Source: an uncultured Chlorobiota bacterium
GTDB taxonomy: Bacteria; Bacteroidota; Ignavibacteria; UBA10030; UBA6906
DNA: 64,000 bases
NCBI GenBank assembly: GCA_900696645.1
Contig: CAADGV010000007.1
Coordinates: 248,001 to 312,000, forward strand
Reading direction: 5' to 3'
Positions 27,336-38,499 of this stretch are shown here, piece after piece; positions within the stretch are counted from its first letter, which is position 1; every line of letters begins with the position of its first letter. The notes below the pieces were generated by a model. The model was given only the letters and a program-made list of their open reading frames with translations. It did not search any database and had not been told where the DNA came from. A program made the translations under genes and the position numbers.

Positions 27336-27591
27336 CGGTATCAAGAATAGAAGCGCCTTTGGGTTTTGCGTAACATCAGTGAATCAGTTCGGATGCTCCT
27401 CAACCCTCAAAAAATACCAAGTTGGGGGAGCAGAAGCAAAGGAATTGTAGTGTCTGCGCGATTCGCGACCAGATGACCAATATTGTTCACCTGAGTTTGT
27501 CACTACTGCCGAACTCCACTTCGAAATGGTGTTCTTTTCGGGCATGATCCTTGAGTGAGTGCAGTCGACCAATCCCCCGTCAGGGAAGGGT

Positions 27592-30500
27592 ATGCTCATA
27601 CGGATACCGGCTGCGAATGCTGAGCATTGTACAGTTGCGGAATTCGCCGGATTTTTCTGGAAACAATCACAGCAGGGAAGTATGCAATATGTGAAAGCGT
27701 TAGCCGACCACTTGACGCCGCGACATCATCGTTTTGTTGAGGCATTTTTGTTGAAATACTCAGATGCCGGCAATCCACATTTCGTTGCGGATGCATATCG
27801 TCAGATATTGAAGAGGGGTATTGAGGCGGTTTCGTATGTAGATGACCTGATGGTCCTGTATGGTGGATACGATCGGCGTCAGTTTCTATACGACATGTTG
27901 CGCTCGAATGAATTCTGCGCATTACAGCGTCGGGGTGAGGATCCGATCCAGGAACCTGAAGGCGTGAAACCACAGCTGCATCGTCCGCCCATCTCGCAAC
28001 TCGAACAATACCAGGACATATGGGTCAAGGGAAAAGTGGAAAAGAAGGGTGTGCGAGAGTGCGAGGATCGGTTTGAGATTATTCAATCCTTCTGCAAGCA
28101 GTATACGAGGCCATTTACGATTCTGGATATCGGGGCAAACCTCGGGTATTTTTCACTCCGCCTTACAGAGGTTTTCGATTGCACGGCAGTTGCTGTAGAG
28201 GGAATCTACGGCGAGTGGACCCATGAGGTATTGAAGAAGAATGAAAATCAACGCGTGATCCTCCTTCAGAAAGTGATATCGCTGGAAGGTCTGTGCGCGC
28301 TTGCAGCCGTCGAACATTTCGATGTTGTGCTTGCTCTGAGTGTCATTCATCATCTCGAAGGAAGCTTTGATGAATCGCTCAACGTTCTACGCTCGCTTGG
28401 CGATCACCTGATACTTGAGCTTCCGTATGAAGCGAATGCGTGCGGGCAGGAGGTTGTAACCAGCGTGCTGAATGCCACATTGCCGGAAGATGCTCAGATA
28501 CTAGGCTACGGAAAGAGCCATCTGATGGACGGCGAAAGACCAATCATGTTACTCTCGCAGCCAAAACAGTCCATTGCCCGTTCGTATCTTGGTACCCCAC
28601 GAACAGACCTGCACGTTACGATTACGAGTACATTTGACGAGAAGAAGGTCAGGTTTCACACGAAGGAGGAGGAGCGTACGTGGGCTCGCGGAATAAATCT
28701 GCAAACATATTTATGGTTTAAGGGAGTATATCCCTCCATGTCACGGATTGCCGACCTGTTGGCTGCCAAAAGGTTGCCGCAGGTGAGTCATCGCGACATT
28801 CAGCCTTGGAATGTGCTCGTACAAGGTGATGATGTCGAACTGATTGACGCAAATGATCCGAATCATGCCTATGATTTTCCTGACACAAAGTGTCTTGAGA
28901 GATTGTTGTGGCTACTCAGAGCGGATTCCTCCGGTTCACCGGAAGTGACGATGCCACCCGCGTCCCTGCAACTCACCGAACAACCACTATGGCGTCAGGC
29001 AGCCCCTGTCTCCAGCGACGTCGGTCCGCAGGCGGCTGTTGCAGCAGTGTTGAACAATGCCGATCGCCTTATTCAGGCCGGAAAGCTTGAACAGGCTGTC
29101 GCCGAATTGCAGAAAGGCTTTCAGTATTTCCGTGAAGCGGCAAAGCTCCATTTCCGATTGTATGAAGTAATGAAGGCACAGGGTCAGACGGAACGTGCAG
29201 AGGTTGAATTCGCTACCGCCTTCTTCTGTGACCCCTCTCTCGCAGAAGTTCACAACGAATTTGGGGTGAGAGCCTTTGAGAAGGGGAACATCGCGTTAGC
29301 GCTCAGGAACTTTGAGCGCGCCGTGCAATTCGACCGCAGGTGTGTTGCCGCGCAGAAGAATCTCAGTGATCTTTATGTGAACGAGGGAAGGCCGGAAGAC
29401 GCTGTACGGCATCTTCAAGCAGTTCTCGAATATTCACCTGATGATGTTGAGGCACTTGCCGGCCTCGGCTATGTTTGCGTACAGATGAAATCAATTGATG
29501 ACGCGATGTTCTTTTTCAATCGTGTAATTGCAATTCGTCCGGATCACCCCGAGGTCTTGCAAATCCTCCGTCTGCTTGATGCACAGCAGAACAAAGGAAC
29601 GGCCGCTGTGACTCAAGTATCCGGGCAGGAAGTGGTATCTTCAGAAGTTGTATGGGCTGCCCCGTTCTTCAATCCCAGCGGCTATGCAAGCGAGGCCATC
29701 AATTTCGTTCTCCCGCTTGAGCGTCGCCTTGCGTTGAAAATCTTCCACCATAACCACATCGTTTCCAAGGAGTTCATTCGTGAGCTTCCCGTTTCAGTGC
29801 GGGAATCGCTTGACAGGATGCAGAACAGAAAGGTAAAGCCAGAAGGATTCATCTTCGTTTCACACAATCCCGCACACGGCTTTGTGAAGCCCCCCGAAGC
29901 GAAATATGTCATCGGCCGAACAATGTTCGAAACGGACCGCATCCCGCACGATTGGGTTGTCAAATGCAACGAAATGGATGAAGTGTGGGTCCCGACGGAC
30001 TTCAACATGCAGACATTTGCCAGATGCGGAGTTGAGAAACAGAAACTTAAAAAGATTCCCGGGTCAGTCGATGTTCATATGTTCGACCCCCGAATTACCG
30101 AACCACTTCCGCTCGAAGAACGAAAGGGGTTCAACTTCCTTGCGGTGTTCGAATGGTCCGAGAGAAAGGGTTATGATGTTCTGCTGAAAGCATATTTCAG
30201 CGAATTCCATTCGTCGGATGATGTCGCTCTGTACTTACGCACGTACCTTATGGGACGTACGGATGCGGATGATTGCGATGAAATTCTGGAGAGAATCCGT
30301 GCCGTTGCACAGGAATTGGGAAAGAACTCGGACGAATTGCCGGCGATCCGTATCCTGAACAAGCAGGTGCCGCTCACAATGTTACCAATGTTGTACAAAG
30401 CGGTGGATGCCTTTGTTGCACCGAGCCGGGGGGAAGGATGGGGTCGTCCGCACATGGAGGCGATGGCGATGGAGTTGCCATGCATAGCGACAAACTGGAG

Positions 30501-32370
30501 TGGCAACACGGAATTCATGAACGAAAGCAACTCATATCCTTTACGGATTGAAGGGTTGAGATCTGTGCGTAAGATGGAGATTCCGATTTATGTGGGTCAC
30601 AAGTGGGCCGAGCCGTCTGTGAAACACTTGCGTCAGCTGATGCGTCACGTTCAGCAACACCGTGAGGAGGCAAGACAAAAGGGTGTTCAGGCACGCAGGG
30701 ACGTCGTTGAGAAATACAGTCAAGAAAAAGTCGCCGGGCTGGTGATGGAACGTATTGTGGCAATTCAAGAGACGCTCTCCGGCGATGCAGCAGTAAGGAA
30801 GAAGCCTTCGGTTGCTTGGGAAGGTACCCCTTTCGCGCATCACTCTCTTTCGTTGATTAACCGCGAACTATGTGTGGAGCTTCTCTCGAATGGATATGAA
30901 CTGTCCATTGTTCCATTCGGGGAAGATCATTTCAAACCGGGGAAGAAAAATCGCTTTGCGCGACTGCACTCAAAACGAAACAAATTGCTTCCATCGGTTG
31001 ATGTTCACGTTCGCCACCACTGGCCGCCGAACCTGACTCCGCCCGAGGAAGGGCGCTGGGTTGTGATGCAGCCGTGGGAATTCGGCAGCCTGCCAAAATC
31101 CTGGGTTGAGGCTTTCGCATCGCAAGTAGATGAGGTGTGGGCGTACACCGAATACGTTCGTCAGGTATATGTCAGCAGTGGAATTCCGGCAAATCGCGTC
31201 CATATTGTGCCGCCGGGCTTTGACCCGGAGACGTTTCATGCTGGCGTAAAGCCGCTGAAACTGAAGACGAAGAAGCAGTTCAAGTTTCTGTTCGTTGGAG
31301 GAACGATTTATAGAAAGGGAATCGACATTCTCCTGGAAACATACACTCAAACATTCACTAGTACTGATGATGTGTGTCTTGTTATCAAGGACATGGGGGG
31401 AGATTCATTCTACAAGGGTCAGACGTTTCGTGATGTTATTCTCGAACTCCGGAAGAAACCCGGGATGCCGGAGATTGAATACATCGATAAGATTCTCTCT
31501 GAACACGAACTTGCCGGACTCTACACTGCATGCAACGTACTCGTTCATCCGTATCGGGGCGAGGGATTCGGCATGCCGATTCTTGAATCAATGGCGTGCG
31601 GAACTCCGGCGATTGTCACACAGGGCGGCGCGGCTCTCGATTTCTGCAATCGGGAGAACAGCATTCTCGTTTCGGCAAGCAGACTCCAGCTCCCTTCAAA
31701 ATTCATCGGTCACGATGAAACCGTTGATTTCCCGTGGCTGCTTGAAGTCAACAAGAAGGAACTTGCAGAGAAGATGGCATTTGCAATGCAACATGTTGAC
31801 GATCTTCAGACTCTTGGGAAACAGGCAAGCGAGGACGCGCATAGTAACTGGACATGGAGGCACGCCGCCGCAAAGTGCCGTCAACGAATAGGTGAGTTGT
31901 CGAAGAAACCAATTGTCCGTTTCTCACAACAACCACCCGGCAATGAGTACATGCAGGAGAAACTCGGGAAGTCTCTCGCTTTGTTCAGGCTCGGTAGGTT
32001 CAAGGACTCTCTCGCAGAGCTGCTTGACCCGGGACCAAAGGTCAGTGAAAATGTTTCACAGGCAATCCAAACAGATCAGGCCAATCTCAAGGGTGCATGC
32101 TATCTCCGTCTCAACGATTTAGAGAAAGCGAAAGTGAGTTTTGAAGAGGCCCTGAATCTGACACCGGATTCATCGGAAGCTTGCGCAGGATTGGGTGAAG
32201 TGTTCTACTTGCTTGGGAAGGACAAGGAGGCGAAGATTATGTTTGAGTATGCTGTTGTGTATGATGAAGAGAATGTAATGGCTGTAAACGGCCTTGCCAA
32301 GGCGAACGAGAATCTTGGTTTGCCTTCTGATGAAAACTCTCTTGTTCAATACGTGACAGTAAACAAATAA
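27592..32370 (+). CDS. Giant multidomain glycosyltransferase: DUF4214, methyltransferase, kinase-like segment, TPRs, two GT4 domains, TPRs
   Basis: A 1592-residue cytoplasmic protein. The order seen is: DUF4214-like helical segment (about 35-105, ending LRSNEF); class I SAM methyltransferase (motif I LDIGANLG 178-185, then VIHHLEG near 250); a short kinase/APH-like catalytic segment HRDIQPWN (400-407) with LIDAND (417-422) but no clear N-lobe; TPRs (about 490-665); a GT4 domain with the E-x7-E motif E948/E956 in RGEGWG; a second GT4 domain with E1324/E1332 in RGEGFG; and C-terminal TPRs (about 1445-1585). Methyltransferase plus kinase modules are known from the polysaccharide-capping protein WbdD. 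Position just before a GT2-TPR gene and two flagellins suggests flagellin or surface-glycan modification. ATG 27592 is chosen for AGGGA at 27582-27586; GTG 27559 and ATG 27682 are alternatives. Confidence 0.85.
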   Translation: MLIRIPAANAEHCTVAEFAGFFWKQSQQGSMQYVKALADHLTPRHHRFVEAFLLKYSDAGNPHFVADAYRQILKRGIEAVSYVDDLMVLYGGYDRRQFLYDMLRSNEFCALQRRGEDPIQEPEGVKPQLHRPPISQLEQYQDIWVKGKVEKKGVRECEDRFEIIQSFCKQYTRPFTILDIGANLGYFSLRLTEVFDCTAVAVEGIYGEWTHEVLKKNENQRVILLQKVISLEGLCALAAVEHFDVVLALSVIHHLEGSFDESLNVLRSLGDHLILELPYEANACGQEVVTSVLNATLPEDAQILGYGKSHLMDGERPIMLLSQPKQSIARSYLGTPRTDLHVTITSTFDEKKVRFHTKEEERTWARGINLQTYLWFKGVYPSMSRIADLLAAKRLPQVSHRDIQPWNVLVQGDDVELIDANDPNHAYDFPDTKCLERLLWLLRADSSGSPEVTMPPASLQLTEQPLWRQAAPVSSDVGPQAAVAAVLNNADRLIQAGKLEQAVAELQKGFQYFREAAKLHFRLYEVMKAQGQTERAEVEFATAFFCDPSLAEVHNEFGVRAFEKGNIALALRNFERAVQFDRRCVAAQKNLSDLYVNEGRPEDAVRHLQAVLEYSPDDVEALAGLGYVCVQMKSIDDAMFFFNRVIAIRPDHPEVLQILRLLDAQQNKGTAAVTQVSGQEVVSSEVVWAAPFFNPSGYASEAINFVLPLERRLALKIFHHNHIVSKEFIRELPVSVRESLDRMQNRKVKPEGFIFVSHNPAHGFVKPPEAKYVIGRTMFETDRIPHDWVVKCNEMDEVWVPTDFNMQTFARCGVEKQKLKKIPGSVDVHMFDPRITEPLPLEERKGFNFLAVFEWSERKGYDVLLKAYFSEFHSSDDVALYLRTYLMGRTDADDCDEILERIRAVAQELGKNSDELPAIRILNKQVPLTMLPMLYKAVDAFVAPSRGEGWGRPHMEAMAMELPCIATNWSGNTEFMNESNSYPLRIEGLRSVRKMEIPIYVGHKWAEPSVKHLRQLMRHVQQHREEARQKGVQARRDVVEKYSQEKVAGLVMERIVAIQETLSGDAAVRKKPSVAWEGTPFAHHSLSLINRELCVELLSNGYELSIVPFGEDHFKPGKKNRFARLHSKRNKLLPSVDVHVRHHWPPNLTPPEEGRWVVMQPWEFGSLPKSWVEAFASQVDEVWAYTEYVRQVYVSSGIPANRVHIVPPGFDPETFHAGVKPLKLKTKKQFKFLFVGGTIYRKGIDILLETYTQTFTSTDDVCLVIKDMGGDSFYKGQTFRDVILELRKKPGMPEIEYIDKILSEHELAGLYTACNVLVHPYRGEGFGMPILESMACGTPAIVTQGGAALDFCNRENSILVSASRLQLPSKFIGHDETVDFPWLLEVNKKELAEKMAFAMQHVDDLQTLGKQASEDAHSNWTWRHAAAKCRQRIGELSKKPIVRFSQQPPGNEYMQEKLGKSLALFRLGRFKDSLAELLDPGPKVSENVSQAIQTDQANLKGACYLRLNDLEKAKVSFEEALNLTPDSSEACAGLGEVFYLLGKDKEAKIMFEYAVVYDEENVMAVNGLAKANENLGLPSDENSLVQYVTVNK

Positions 32371-33954
32371 ATGAAAATGACAACGGCGCATTCAAAGACA
32401 CAGAGTAAACAAGATCGAGGGAGTAGGCTTTCACTCTCAATGATCGTAAAGAATGAAGAAAAGTTTCTGCCCGACTGTCTCGAAAGTGTGAAAGGCCTTA
32501 TTGATGAAATCGTAATCGTTGACACAGGTTCGACCGATGCAACGAAAGAGATTGCGGCTCGTTACGGAGCACGTATAATTGATTTTAACTGGATCGGCGA
32601 TTTTTCGGCTGCGCGGAACCACGCACTTGAGCAGTGTACGGGCGACTGGGTGCTGTATCTTGATGCAGATGAACGACTTACAGACAATCAAGAGAATCTG
32701 CTGCGCAAGCTCATCACGGCAGGCGGTGTTGACGCGTACAATGTCATCATCGAAAATCCACACTCGCTGCAACAAGGGAACTTCAACCAGGAGAACTCTT
32801 ATCCGAGACTGTTCAGGAGATTGCCCGGAGTGAAGTTCGAGGGAAAAGTGCATGAGCAAGTCTGGCCCTCATTGATGCGACTGAAGCTAACCGTGAAGCA
32901 ATCGTCGCTTGCTATTCAACACCTCGGTTATGGTCAAGGGTATGATGTCGTCAAACAAAAAGCGGAACGGAACCTTGAACTGTTAAAGAACCAGCTTGCC
33001 GCGGACCCGGATGATGCGTATGCACAGTTCCAAACAGGTAACTCGCTTGTTATACTGCAACGCTACGATGAAGCAAGGCCTGCACTTGAGCTTGCTCTTG
33101 AGAACAGCAAACTTGACGTGACCAATAGGGCTTCCTGTTACAACCTGCTTGCCGAGATCGAAGTAAAACGGGGGAACCTTGACGCGGCAGTCGAACTCTG
33201 CCTGAAATCTCTTCAACTTGCTCCCAGACAATTGATGGCGCATTGGTTTCTTTCACTCATGTATTTCGATTTGAAGCTATTTGCCAAAGCAGTTGAGCAG
33301 TTGAGTACAATCGAGGAGTTGATTCCGGTTCCGGCGGCTCAGCGTTCAAATCAGGTTGCCTCCGATCTTCATCTCAGAATGGAAGATGTCAAGAAGCGGA
33401 TGGCAATAACATACGAGGCGGCGGGGGAATTCAAGAAAGCCCTCATACAGTATTCGAATGTTGTTGAACTGACTAAAGCGCAAGACGGATTGGCGGGACT
33501 CCTTAAATGTGCAGAGCAGGTTGAGGATTCCCGTTTCGTGATTGAGACATTGGGGCATCTTACAAGAACAAATTCAGCCAGCGTCGAACTCTTCCTCCCG
33601 CTTGCATGGTATTACCGGAAAGTGAATGACTTGGATTCTGCCATCAACTTCATAGACAAGGCAATCCGTGCCCAGCCTGCAAACAGCAAAGCATATGCCT
33701 TTGCGGTTCGCTGGAAGATGGATACGGGGGATGTTCAATCCGCAGAGAAGACTCTCGAATTGGCAGAGGAGAAAGGGATTCGGGATTTTGAGTTGCACAA
33801 GGCGGGCTTGCAACTTTTTCTGCAAAGGGGAGATGTGAATGCCGCGTTTCATCATCTTGAACTGATGTCGCAAACCACTGATGCTGATCTTACACCGATC
33901 AGGAATCGGCTTGCAGCGCTCGCGGAAAAGATATCGGCTGTATCATCTCCCTGA
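32371..33954 (+). CDS. GT2-family glycosyltransferase with C-terminal TPRs
   Basis: A 527-residue cytoplasmic protein. The N-terminal GT2 domain (about 20-250) opens LSLSMIVKNEEKFLPDCL, has the nucleotide-sugar loop VDTGSTD and the DXD-type motif DADE (98-101). From about 200 the protein is TPR-like helices to the end. GT2-TPR proteins resemble SPINDLY-like and WaaE/SunT-like glycosyltransferases that act on proteins or surface glycans. It starts directly at the stop of the giant glycosyltransferase gene and precedes the flagellins, so the pair may glycosylate flagellin. Confidence 0.87.
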   Translation: MKMTTAHSKTQSKQDRGSRLSLSMIVKNEEKFLPDCLESVKGLIDEIVIVDTGSTDATKEIAARYGARIIDFNWIGDFSAARNHALEQCTGDWVLYLDADERLTDNQENLLRKLITAGGVDAYNVIIENPHSLQQGNFNQENSYPRLFRRLPGVKFEGKVHEQVWPSLMRLKLTVKQSSLAIQHLGYGQGYDVVKQKAERNLELLKNQLAADPDDAYAQFQTGNSLVILQRYDEARPALELALENSKLDVTNRASCYNLLAEIEVKRGNLDAAVELCLKSLQLAPRQLMAHWFLSLMYFDLKLFAKAVEQLSTIEELIPVPAAQRSNQVASDLHLRMEDVKKRMAITYEAAGEFKKALIQYSNVVELTKAQDGLAGLLKCAEQVEDSRFVIETLGHLTRTNSASVELFLPLAWYYRKVNDLDSAINFIDKAIRAQPANSKAYAFAVRWKMDTGDVQSAEKTLELAEEKGIRDFELHKAGLQLFLQRGDVNAAFHHLELMSQTTDADLTPIRNRLAALAEKISAVSSP

Positions 33955-34241: not shown

Positions 34242-35069
34242 ATGCCGTTTACAGGTGGTGCTAGAATAAACACCAATATTTCAGCTATGAATGCGGTGAA
34301 TGCGCTGAACAGCATCAATCGCGATCTGGGTATGCACCAGGAACGTCTCGCCACAGGCCGACGCATCAATTCATCGGCAGATGACCCGTCGGGTTATATG
34401 ATTTCCAAGAAAATGGAAGGTCGTATTCGCTCGATGAGTTCGGCAATCGATAACGTCGGAGATGCATCTTCCACGTTAGGTGTTGCTGAGGGTTCTTATC
34501 AGAAGATAGCTGATCTGTTGGTGCAAATCAAAGAGAAGCAGACACGGTTCATCAATGGGGCATTCGGAAGTGATGAGAAAAGTGCCATTGCCACGGAGAT
34601 TGCGGCGTTGGCATCGGAGATTGATGACATTGTTGCCAACAACAAGTTCAACGGAGTGCAACTGCTCAACGGTACGTACTCCGAGGATTTTCAGGTTGGC
34701 GAGTCAAGCGCGGAGTTGTTCAATGTATCGTTCAGCGCAAGCGTCTCCTCGGCTTCTCTACTTGGCACGGCAGCAGGAAGCATTACCAGTGCGAATGTCG
34801 TTGGTTTGACTGTTGACACGGGCATTGGGACTGTGAACTCTGCGATCGGCGCAATCGGGGCATCGCTGAATCGTCTTTCGGCGAAGGAAGAAAACCTGAA
34901 CAACGCCATCACGAACACAGAAGCGGCGAAAAGCCGTATCTTTGATGCTGATATAGCAAAGGAACAGATCCAAGCTGCAAAACTCCAAATCTTGCAGCAG
35001 ACAGCTACATCGATGCTGGCGCAGGCAAATCAAGCGCCGCAGGTGTTCTTGTCTCTCTTCCGAAGCTAA
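34242..35069 (+). CDS. Flagellin (copy 1)
   Basis: A 275-residue short flagellin: a D0/D1 N-terminal helix region (RINTNISAMNA; NRDLGMHQERLATG; ADDPSGY), a reduced centre, and a C-terminal D0/D1 (NRLSAKEENL; AKSRIFDADIAKEQ; MLAQANQAPQ). Ser and Thr cluster at about 160-190 (SFSASVSSASL), a likely exposed region open to O-glycosylation. It is about 85 percent identical by eye to the next gene. A sigma-28 promoter and a strong ribosome-binding site precede it, and a terminator follows, so it is a separate late-class transcript. Confidence 0.97.
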   Translation: MPFTGGARINTNISAMNAVNALNSINRDLGMHQERLATGRRINSSADDPSGYMISKKMEGRIRSMSSAIDNVGDASSTLGVAEGSYQKIADLLVQIKEKQTRFINGAFGSDEKSAIATEIAALASEIDDIVANNKFNGVQLLNGTYSEDFQVGESSAELFNVSFSASVSSASLLGTAAGSITSANVVGLTVDTGIGTVNSAIGAIGASLNRLSAKEENLNNAITNTEAAKSRIFDADIAKEQIQAAKLQILQQTATSMLAQANQAPQVFLSLFRS

Positions 35070-35087
35070 GCCAACCAACCGGCGTAT

Positions 35088-35130
35088 TGACGAGGGAGGT
35101 GTTCGAAAGCGCACCTCCCTGTCAGTTTTT
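35088..35130 (+). terminator. Rho-independent terminator after flagellin 1
   Basis: The 8-bp stem GGGAGGTG (35094-35101) / CACCTCCC (35112-35119) is extended by TGAC (35088) / GTCA (35121-35124) and followed by GTTTTT. Confidence 0.88.
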
Positions 35131-35236
35131 AGTGATTTCGGGATGAAAAAAAGCCGTTTTACTGGCGGCTATAACGATGGCAAACAGGTTGCTACCTAAG
35201 TCTTTGAAACTCAACCCGTTACCAATCGGAAGCGGC

Positions 35237-35263
35237 TAAAGATTCAGCACATACCTCCGATAA
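35237..35263 (+). promoter_or_regulatory. Sigma-28 promoter of flagellin gene 2
   Basis: TAAA (35237-35240), 15 bases, TCCGATAA (35256-35263): the same elements and spacing as the first flagellin promoter. The leader is about 73 bases, with AAGGAGGTA before the ATG at 35343. Confidence 0.9.
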
Positions 35264-35342
35264 TAGTAACAGAGCAGCCAATGCTCAAGTAAACGGGCAA
35301 GGAAGCCCGACCAACACATACACAAACTACAAGGAGGTAGTC

Positions 35343-36167
35343 ATGCCACTTACCAGTGGAGCAAGAATCAATACCAACGTTGCCGCGATGAATGCGTTGC
35401 AGTCTTTGAACGCCATCAACCGTGACCTCGGTATGCACCAGGAACGTCTTGCGACCGGCAAGCGCATCAACAGTGCAGCGGATGATCCGTCAGGATACGT
35501 GATTTCCAAGAAAATGGAAGGCCGTATCCGTTCGATGAATTCTGCGCTGGACAACGTCGGTGATGCACAGTCGACTTACGGCGTCGCGGAAGGCGCCTAT
35601 CAGAAGATTGCTGATCTGCTTGTTCAGATCAAAGAGAAGCAAACCCGCTTCATCAACGGCGCATTCGGTGCCGATGAGAAGGATGCTATCGCAACCGAAA
35701 TCAAGGCCCTCGCCAGCGAAATCGACGACATCGTCTCGACCACAAAGTTCAATGGTGTCTCTCTGTTGGACGGCCAATACTCAGAGAGCTTCCAGGTTGG
35801 TGAAGGTTCCTCGGAAACGTTCAGTGTCACATTCAGTGCAAGCGTCTCCTCAGCTTCATTGCTTGGCACGGCGGCCGGCAGCATCACTTCCGCCAACGTT
35901 TCGGGTCTCACAGTGGACACCGGACTTGGAACGGTGAACAGCTCGATCGGTACGATTGGTGCCTCGTTGAATCGCCTCTCCGCAAAAGAAGCGAATCTCA
36001 ACACGGCAATTACGAATACCGAAGCAGCGAAAAGCCGCATCTTTGACGCTGACATTGCGAAGGAGCAAATCAAGGCTGCGAAGTTGCAGATCCTTCAGCA
36101 AACGTCAACATCAATGTTGGCACAGGCGAACACCTCGCCGCAGGTTTTCCTGTCACTGTTTCGATGA
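35343..36167 (+). CDS. Flagellin (copy 2)
   Basis: A 274-residue paralogue of the preceding flagellin, with the same architecture: conserved N-terminal ATGKRINSAADDPSG, a Ser/Thr-rich middle SFTFSASVSSASL-like stretch, and C-terminal SRIFDADIAKEQIKAAK. Differences between the copies are scattered and mostly conservative. Its own sigma-28 promoter allows separate dosage. A GC-rich hairpin follows the stop, before the export-chaperone genes. Confidence 0.97.
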   Translation: MPLTSGARINTNVAAMNALQSLNAINRDLGMHQERLATGKRINSAADDPSGYVISKKMEGRIRSMNSALDNVGDAQSTYGVAEGAYQKIADLLVQIKEKQTRFINGAFGADEKDAIATEIKALASEIDDIVSTTKFNGVSLLDGQYSESFQVGEGSSETFSVTFSASVSSASLLGTAAGSITSANVSGLTVDTGLGTVNSSIGTIGASLNRLSAKEANLNTAITNTEAAKSRIFDADIAKEQIKAAKLQILQQTSTSMLAQANTSPQVFLSLFR

Positions 36168-36674: not shown

Positions 36675-38114
36675 ATGGCGACAATCAGTACGGTTACGAA
36701 CCAACAGATCGAGTCTCTCGTTCAGCAGTATCGGTACAGCATCAGCAACCCGATAACATTGCTGCAGAACCGTCAGACTTCGCTGAACACGCGCCTGAAC
36801 GTTCTCTCCGAACTGAAGTCGAAGATGACTGCGTTGAACAACCTTGCCAAAGGGTTGAAGGCATCGGGCACAACGTCGAAGTTCAACGCGTTCACTGTCG
36901 AGAGTTCACTCGGTTCGGTGGCTACAGGCACTGCAACCGGTACGGCCTCTGCAGGAACCCACTCGCTGCTTGTTACTCAACTGGCGAAGCAGGACAAGGC
37001 TATTTCTGCACAACTTTCGAGTTTAGCGACAACGATTGTAGGAACGGAGGGTGCCGGGCAAAAGACCATCAGCATTACTGTAAACGGCAGTTCTGTGAAT
37101 GTCGATTTTGAGTTGGATGCGGGCGACACGAACAGCGTAGTACTGAATAAACTGGCTGCGGCTGTAAATGCATCGGGTGGTGATGTGTCGGCGGGTGTTG
37201 TTTCCGATACACAGGGCACAAGCAGACTGGTTTTCACAAGCAAAAAAACCGGGTCCGACCAGGCTGTAAGTTTGGCGGATGTATCGGGGAGCGTGCTTGA
37301 CACGATAGGCCTTGGGGCCACCGTTATGGCGGACCGAACGGCTTCCACTGCAACCGGCGGCGGGTTTCTCTATTCTTCGACCGGCCTTCTTGACGCAAAG
37401 TTCAAGTTGGACGGCATCGACATCATACGCGGAACGAATTCCATTACCGATGTACTTTCCGGCGTCACTCTCGAACTGAAGGGCGTACAATCTCCCACAG
37501 ATACGCCGCTGACCTTGACTGTCAGCTCGGACAAATCATCCATCAAGTCAACCGTTCAGGACTTCATCAAGGCGTACAACGATGTTCTCAGCTTTCTCAA
37601 TGCAAAAACGTCTGTAAACCCAGAGAACAAGACGAGGGAGATTCTGGCAAGCGACCAGGTTTTCAAAGGCTTGCGAATGAACATGCGTTCGCTGATTGGT
37701 AGTCCTGTGAGCAGTGTGGCAACCGGGAATCCGTCGTTGCTGGCAGAGATCGGGATAACAGCAGCATCCGACGGAACGTTGAGCATCAGCAATGCGGCCA
37801 CGTTTGACAATGCTCTTGCGAGCAACGTCCGGAAGGTTGCCGATCTATTCAACTCGACCGACGGTGTAGCGGGACGCATGAACGCATTGCTGGAATCCTT
37901 TACTTCAACAGGCGGTCAGTTGGAAATTGCCCAGAACGGAACGAGAGACCAACTGTCAGGCATCAAGTCGGCGTTGACGCGGAACCAAACGCAAATTGAT
38001 GCAAGGGTTGCATCATTCAGGAAACAATACGAAGCATTGTACAATGCCATGACAAGAATTTCGCTGCAGTCACAGACTGTAACGAATCTGTTAAACCAAC
38101 TATACGGCTACTAA
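36675..38114 (+). CDS. fliD: Flagellar filament cap protein FliD
   Basis: A 479-residue protein of typical FliD length. The N-terminal FliD_N domain (about 5-110) has PITLLQNRQTSLNTRL. The C-terminal FliD_C domain (about 230-475) includes FKLDGIDIIRGTN, IKAYNDVLSFLNAKT and the end region RKQYEALYNAMTRI. It forms the cap that folds incoming flagellin. GAGGAG lies ahead of the ATG. Together with fliS, flaG and flgM it makes a late-gene block. Confidence 0.95.
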   Translation: MATISTVTNQQIESLVQQYRYSISNPITLLQNRQTSLNTRLNVLSELKSKMTALNNLAKGLKASGTTSKFNAFTVESSLGSVATGTATGTASAGTHSLLVTQLAKQDKAISAQLSSLATTIVGTEGAGQKTISITVNGSSVNVDFELDAGDTNSVVLNKLAAAVNASGGDVSAGVVSDTQGTSRLVFTSKKTGSDQAVSLADVSGSVLDTIGLGATVMADRTASTATGGGFLYSSTGLLDAKFKLDGIDIIRGTNSITDVLSGVTLELKGVQSPTDTPLTLTVSSDKSSIKSTVQDFIKAYNDVLSFLNAKTSVNPENKTREILASDQVFKGLRMNMRSLIGSPVSSVATGNPSLLAEIGITAASDGTLSISNAATFDNALASNVRKVADLFNSTDGVAGRMNALLESFTSTGGQLEIAQNGTRDQLSGIKSALTRNQTQIDARVASFRKQYEALYNAMTRISLQSQTVTNLLNQLYGY

Positions 38115-38133
38115 AGCCGGGAGGATGATCAAC

Positions 38134-38499
38134 ATGTCAATCTCCCCTCAAATATCAACCGCTGTTGGGACGATGCCCCCGTTGTCGACAACGATCGCAT
38201 ATGCCGGACAATCCGGTATGTACGAACCCTTGGTTCGCCGTGACCCGAAAGTCGAGGAACGACGGACAGAGGTATCAGAAAAAGAGGCCCGACAACTGGC
38301 TCAGGATCTTAATGATGCGTTGCGGCCGTTCAACACCGAATTGAGTTTCACGGTAGACAAAGACACGGAAAAGGTGGTCATCAAGATTGTGGACAGCGAA
38401 ACGCAGGAAATTGTGCGGCAGATTCCTGCAGAAGATACCCTGCGGCTGGCCTCACGCATCAAGCAGTTGTTGGGGCTTCTTGTGGACGGGAACGCATGA
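38134..38499 (+). CDS. flaG: FlaG-family flagellar protein
   Basis: A 121-residue protein. The C-terminal half, NTELSFTVDKDTEKVVIKIVDSETQEIVRQIPAED, is the FlaG domain. FlaG proteins influence filament length and often lie next to fliD and fliS. ATG 38134 is preferred over ATG 38125 because GGGAGG (38119-38124) is directly against the first but 9 bases from the second. The stop overlaps the next ATG. Confidence 0.88.
   Translation: MSISPQISTAVGTMPPLSTTIAYAGQSGMYEPLVRRDPKVEERRTEVSEKEARQLAQDLNDALRPFNTELSFTVDKDTEKVVIKIVDSETQEIVRQIPAEDTLRLASRIKQLLGLLVDGNA

Follow-up and report, generated by a model that had tools for sequence, protein, structure and literature searches.

Capping of a glycan with methyl phosphate is established for a few O-antigens. 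In E. coli O9a the task is achieved by WbdD (PDB 4AZS), a single chain in which a methyltransferase is followed by a kinase and a C-terminal coiled-coil ruler. ORF6 of Klebsiella pneumoniae O7 comprises a methyltransferase-kinase, a coiled-coil and two GT2 modules; for this one chain, sugar addition and methyl-phosphate capping have both been proven biochemically. Its kinase is reported to be unlike that of WbdD in sequence and structure and AmiN-like (PMC11231755).

Among flagellin glycans, too, some are known to carry phosphate and methyl groups, and they are made by other enzymes (PMC11833859). Those of P. aeruginosa b-type and C. difficile type A contain a phosphodiester-linked group, for which a route via CDP-activated (methyl)threonine is proposed, and PA1091 unites a glycosyltransferase and a phosphotransferase in one chain (PMC11833859). 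In Maf-1, the specificity for flagellin is set by TPRs (PMC13317340). A partial literature search yielded no report of a WbdD-type module on flagellin, none of such a module in the flagellin glycosylation of P. aeruginosa or C. difficile, and none in which a module of the WbdD type, its kinase being reduced, is combined with GT4 domains and flagellin. The single parts have precedents.

Layout of the gene and its neighbourhood

The window, i.e., the whole stretch of 64,000 nucleotides that was analysed, contains an uninterrupted frame of 1592 codons on the + strand, which starts with an ATG at 27592 and ends at 32370. An in-frame GTG at 27559 is a possible alternative start and would extend the protein from 1592 to 1603 aa. 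The next gene begins with an ATG at 32371, directly behind the stop at 32370. The features are:

27592..32370, +: whole multidomain protein, 1592 aa (ORF, Pfam, motif positions)
27592..27999, +: residues 1-136, helical N-terminus with a weak DUF4214-like signal (Pfam, below the family cut-off)
28000..28563, +: residues 137-324, WbdD-type SAM methyltransferase, starting LEQYQDIWVKGK (profile, fold, alignment)
28564..28935, +: residues 325-448, compact kinase-like domain whose N-lobe is reduced to 3 strands, with K351 (model and alignment)
28789..28812, +: residues 400-407, catalytic loop HRDIQPWN (aligned to HDDVRPWN of WbdD with D351, W355 and N356)
28840..28857, +: residues 417-422, LIDAND, a DFG-like LID metal-binding segment (D419 aligned to D369 of WbdD)
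29071..29598, +: residues 494-669, first TPR array (Pfam)
29641..30801, +: residues 684-1070, first GT4 glycosyltransferase, E-x7-E at 948-956 (Pfam, motif)
30802..31911, +: residues 1071-1440, second GT4 glycosyltransferase, E-x7-E at 1324-1332 (Pfam, motif)
32041..32313, +: residues 1484-1574, C-terminal TPRs (Pfam)
32371..33954, +: GT2 glycosyltransferase with TPRs, 527 aa, SunS-like in its GT2 part (ORF, family search)
34242..36167, +: two flagellin genes (34242-35069 and 35343-36167), the likely acceptor (Pfam)
36675..38499, +: FliD and FlaG genes, flagellar context (Pfam)

An earlier sequence-only reading had proposed a 1592-residue fusion of methyltransferase, kinase-like, two GT4 and two TPR regions at 27592-32370, and this architecture is borne out by ORF, Pfam, profile and fold. 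The motifs it had named, LDIGANLG of the SAM site (residues 178-185), HRDxxPxN, LID and two E-x7-E, are all present and in that order. Two GT4 stretches exceed the Pfam cut-off (Glyco_trans_1_4, E 1.4e-30), and both units have the GT-B C-terminal domain and the E-x7-E motif of GT4 (Glycos_transf_1); the second is 29% identical to the first. The two TPR regions, too, are above cut-off. Of the DUF4214-like helices only the weak N-terminal signal is left: with 16.3 bits against a Pfam gathering cut-off of 23.2 (E 0.01), the N-terminus is not confirmed as a member of this family, and BLASTP against a DUF4214-like Paenibacillus protein gave no match.

Single-sequence searches of Pfam, NCBIfam and PHROGs returned just generic or phage methyltransferases and sub-threshold kinases; the Pfam matches to methyltransferase (E 0.005) and APH kinase (E 0.02) are both below cut-off. 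Once evidence from profiles and predicted folds is added, the two assignments can be regarded as secure.

Pairs of GT2-TPR and flagellin genes are present in further genomes of the order as well. Judged from its neighbourhood, a context common to a sister species (see below), the giant protein would be a flagellin glycosyltransferase. Like ORF6 of K. pneumoniae O7, it unites glycosyltransferases and a methyltransferase-kinase in one polypeptide, capping being a prediction here. Unlike ORF6, it has GT4 instead of GT2, TPRs instead of a coiled-coil, flagellin instead of O-antigen, and a kinase of the WbdD type instead of an AmiN-like one. As a putative flagellin-modifying multidomain glycosyltransferase it resembles PA1091/FgtA of P. 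aeruginosa and the proteins of C. difficile types A and B, which, however, combine GT2 with a phosphotransferase or a methyltransferase of other families.

The methyltransferase-kinase module and its viral relatives

When the single sequence was compared with solved structures by phmmer, WbdD was the first match (E 2.3e-5), and the segment HRDIQPWN was collinear with HDDVRPWN of WbdD. The signal became far clearer with an alignment (A3) of 28 rows, consisting of the window module and 27 homologues from viral contigs that span the whole module. The A3 profile again had WbdD as its first solved structure (E 1.6e-21), with the methyltransferase and then the kinase segment in the same order. Using A3, AlphaFold2 modelled residues 137-448 with a pLDDT of 88.2 and a pTM of 0.89. 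The five best Foldseek matches of this model among solved structures are WbdD entries, and VIA-align superimposed it on WbdD with Z 16.5 and an rmsd of 3.0 over 187 aligned residues of the methyltransferase, the next family reaching Z 13.1. Both sequence and predicted fold identify residues 137-448 as a genuine methyltransferase-kinase of the WbdD type; what had looked like a mere likeness in the letters has thus proved to be homology.

The methyltransferase of WbdD binds sulphate or phosphate in a pocket made of R31, C33, N34, Q35, R36, F194, D195 and H197 (PMC3482155). R31, C33, R36 and H197 align with R155, C157, R160 and H310 of the giant protein, and these residues are conserved in A3 (25/28, 22/28, 28/28 and 25/28, respectively). 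Since the pocket residues are aligned and conserved, the target of the methyltransferase is likely a phosphate.

The kinase follows directly C-terminal to the methyltransferase and has the H-x-D, N and D(FG) residues. H400, D402, N407 and D419, which include the counterparts of D351, N356 and D369 of WbdD, are invariant in all 28 rows of A3, and K351 is found in 26 of them; this invariance is far beyond chance. Residue 406 (window 28807-28809), aligned with W355 of WbdD, is W in one half of the rows (14) and H in the other (14). In WbdD, the exchange W355H retained about half of the activity (PMC3482155). Modelled alone (residues 322-448), the segment reached a pLDDT of 86, and its 50 best solved structures are exclusively kinase folds, WbdD among them, although the matches are weak (best Foldseek E 0.019, Z 6.8 or less, tied rows); positions 4-127 of the model match 223-420 of WbdD.

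The domain is compact. In its model, the N-lobe consists of three strands and lacks alphaC; two short helices precede the catalytic core, and a single one follows it. Compared with WbdD, some 50 residues are missing before the catalytic loop: from the column of Y332 to H400 every member of A3 has 65-72 residues, WbdD 119, where the equivalence of Y332 to the G-loop tyrosine Y230 of WbdD rests on an ungapped extension and is tentative. The full two-lobed fold of eukaryotic-like kinases, as seen in the WbdD crystal structure, is therefore not reached, and we speak of a WbdD-type module, not of WbdD itself. The sequence-only reading had found the kinase odd for having no obvious N-lobe. The lobe is indeed reduced, but its three strands remain; since all 27 viral-contig homologues are equally short, the short N-lobe is a family trait and not a local decay. 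ATP binding by such a reduced lobe is putative. Behind the module the two proteins also part: TPRs and then GT4 units follow (Pfam) where WbdD has its coiled-coil ruler and polymerase-binding tail, and the context is flagellin, not O-antigen.

As nearest relatives of the module, the searches brought up stand-alone genes from viral contigs, with up to ~50% identity. Most of them encode 301-326 aa and open with a (M/L)EQYQD-W motif; with the same motif the window module starts at residue 137. Some belong to phage virion-glycosylation cassettes (L048-L051, L071), in which the same methyltransferase-kinase (<=50% identity) is a separate gene for ~305-326 aa with a GT4 neighbour and presumably serves a capsid or tail protein, in contrast to the likely acceptor flagellin here. 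The order in L051 is head maturation protease, major capsid protein, GT4, methyltransferase-kinase, head-tail adaptor and major tail protein. In other viral contigs (L052, L053, L055-L060) the gene adjoins one for a UvsX-like recombinase instead of capsid genes, the neighbour having been checked in L055 (2760-4617, +). Fusions occur as well. A viral protein of 658 aa (L094 2828-4801, +) joins the methyltransferase-kinase directly to a GT4 and comes closest to the domain order of the giant protein; another one of 1472 aa (L102 2180-6595, +) consists of GT4, FkbM methyltransferase, methyltransferase-kinase, a further methyltransferase and a GT9-like domain. One viral copy (L079 4001-4717, +) stops early, after 239 aa, and its frame lacks the catalytic loop.

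In the mycobacteriophages Tweety and LittleE, a small kinase, a methyltransferase and glycosyltransferases are encoded by separate neighbouring genes, in Tweety in the order kinase-methyltransferase-glycosyltransferase. Their methyltransferase is of the same family as that of the module (hhalign E 3.9e-30); their kinase resembles the module kinase in the catalytic segment only (hhalign 83%). For F1 phages related to Tweety, glycosylated capsids have been reported (PMC11256854).

In the tree, the window copy falls into a well-supported clade of 15 (99/99), the other members of which all come from viral contigs. As all other sampled rows are viral, this does not prove a phage origin. A plasmid search gave no match, and the base composition shows no sign of recent transfer, the GC of the module (0.49) being that of the surroundings. 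Probably, the module was gained horizontally from a pool that phages use for virion decoration; we infer the direction of transfer.

Proposed function and alternatives

We consider it somewhat probable that the giant protein is a modular flagellin glycosyltransferase with a phage-type capping module that adds methyl phosphate to the glycan end. The neighbouring GT2-TPR protein and the two GT4 domains would build a short flagellin glycan in the cytoplasm, while the TPRs would hold the acceptor, presumably flagellin. The kinase, if active, would phosphorylate the outermost sugar, and the methyltransferase would then methylate the added phosphate, which would leave a methyl-phosphate cap as made by WbdD on the O9a polymannose. 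Speaking against this reading are the short kinase, modelled without alphaC, the weak matches of its fold taken alone, and the TPRs in the place of the coiled-coil ruler of WbdD; the assignment to flagellin is drawn from gene neighbourhood. A broader view is more tentative: kinase-like domains of ~120-140 residues, which is less than the usual protein-kinase fold has, and a phosphate methyltransferase may together form a capper of phage virion glycans, which here would be wired into a flagellin glycosyltransferase and yield protein glycans ending in methyl phosphate.

The same module could, of course, be read differently. Its kinase-like segment might be a structural remnant, only the methyltransferase being active and methylating a hydroxyl group on one of the sugars of the flagellin glycan. 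The reduced N-lobe and the weak matches of the kinase-only fold would fit, and sugar methylation has been proposed for a GT2-methyltransferase fusion in the case of the C. difficile type B flagellin (PMC5207246). Four catalytic residues that are invariant in 28 diverse sequences, however, are unexpected of a dead domain, and the methyltransferase retains the phosphate-pocket residues of WbdD, which makes a remnant unlikely. An active kinase need not act on a sugar either; it might phosphorylate flagellin at Ser/Thr, or a lipid, or a small-molecule donor, and thereby give rise to a phosphodiester-linked group. Its fold is common to protein kinases, and flagellin glycans with phosphodiester and methyl groups exist, PA1091 being a glycosyltransferase-phosphotransferase chain (PMC11833859). 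Yet for those pathways, other enzymes and a CDP-activated (methyl)threonine are described (PMC11833859), and the best relative of the module is a sugar kinase-methyltransferase. We regard a target other than a sugar as rather unlikely.

The context itself may also mislead. A Paenibacillus vini relative of the glycosyltransferase part has, by eye, no recognisable flagellin gene within 14.7 kb, as if the adjacency to flagellin were incidental and the giant protein made a surface polysaccharide or another glycoprotein. In the sister species, however, tail protein and GT2-TPR gene adjoin flagellin too, and the recurrence of GT2-TPR-flagellin pairs elsewhere in the order likewise renders a coincidence improbable. 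That a phage gene and a flagellar gene were joined into one frame by faulty assembly appears highly improbable: the junction was seen in no other genome searched, but the 4.8-kb frame is unbroken across every junction and lies inside a 397-kb contig, and the GC of the module equals that of its surroundings.

If capping of flagellin by the module is true, methyl-phosphate capping extends from O-antigens to protein glycans, and a very small kinase-like domain is to be added to those known. A capping module shared by phages and a flagellin glycosyltransferase would suggest that phages and bacteria exchange their decoration enzymes, and it would account for the "kinase" and "methyltransferase" genes that occur in pairs in the glycosylation clusters of mycobacteriophages.

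Modularity in bacteria

Among the genomes searched, 98 from the order and 395 from the phylum, the full module is present in the window genome only (418.7 bits); the next-best profile match in the phylum has 53.8 bits and covers the SAM core only. The many weak matches in the phylum (<=53.8 bits) were not counted as full-module homologues because nearly all of them cover just the generic SAM-binding core. A single scan of genome_contigs yielded just the relative of the glycosyltransferase part in Paenibacillus vini. In these searches, no homologue emerged that has the same domain order and is assigned to another pathway.

By contrast, the GT4-GT4-TPR tail, complete or partial, is found again in proteins with 1433-4531 aa. 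Its counterpart in the sister species (G001) is 70% identical and adjoins flagellin and the same GT2-TPR gene, the N-terminus being replaced: the protein of 2803 aa (L034 3268-11679, -) has a different kinase there (Pkinase, E 3.5e-9, residues 401-548), TPRs and a GT2. This Pkinase is unrelated to the kinase module of the window. By eye, the stretch in front of it looks nucleotidyltransferase-like. In P. vini (L028 5989-8766, +), the two GT4 units are swapped around a TPR block, beside a SunS-like GT2-TPR gene. We infer that modules at this locus can be exchanged for one another and that kinases were gained more than once. In genome G038 (L035 1568-15163, -), 4531 aa in one frame comprise five GT2 and four GT4 stretches, a methyltransferase and TPRs.
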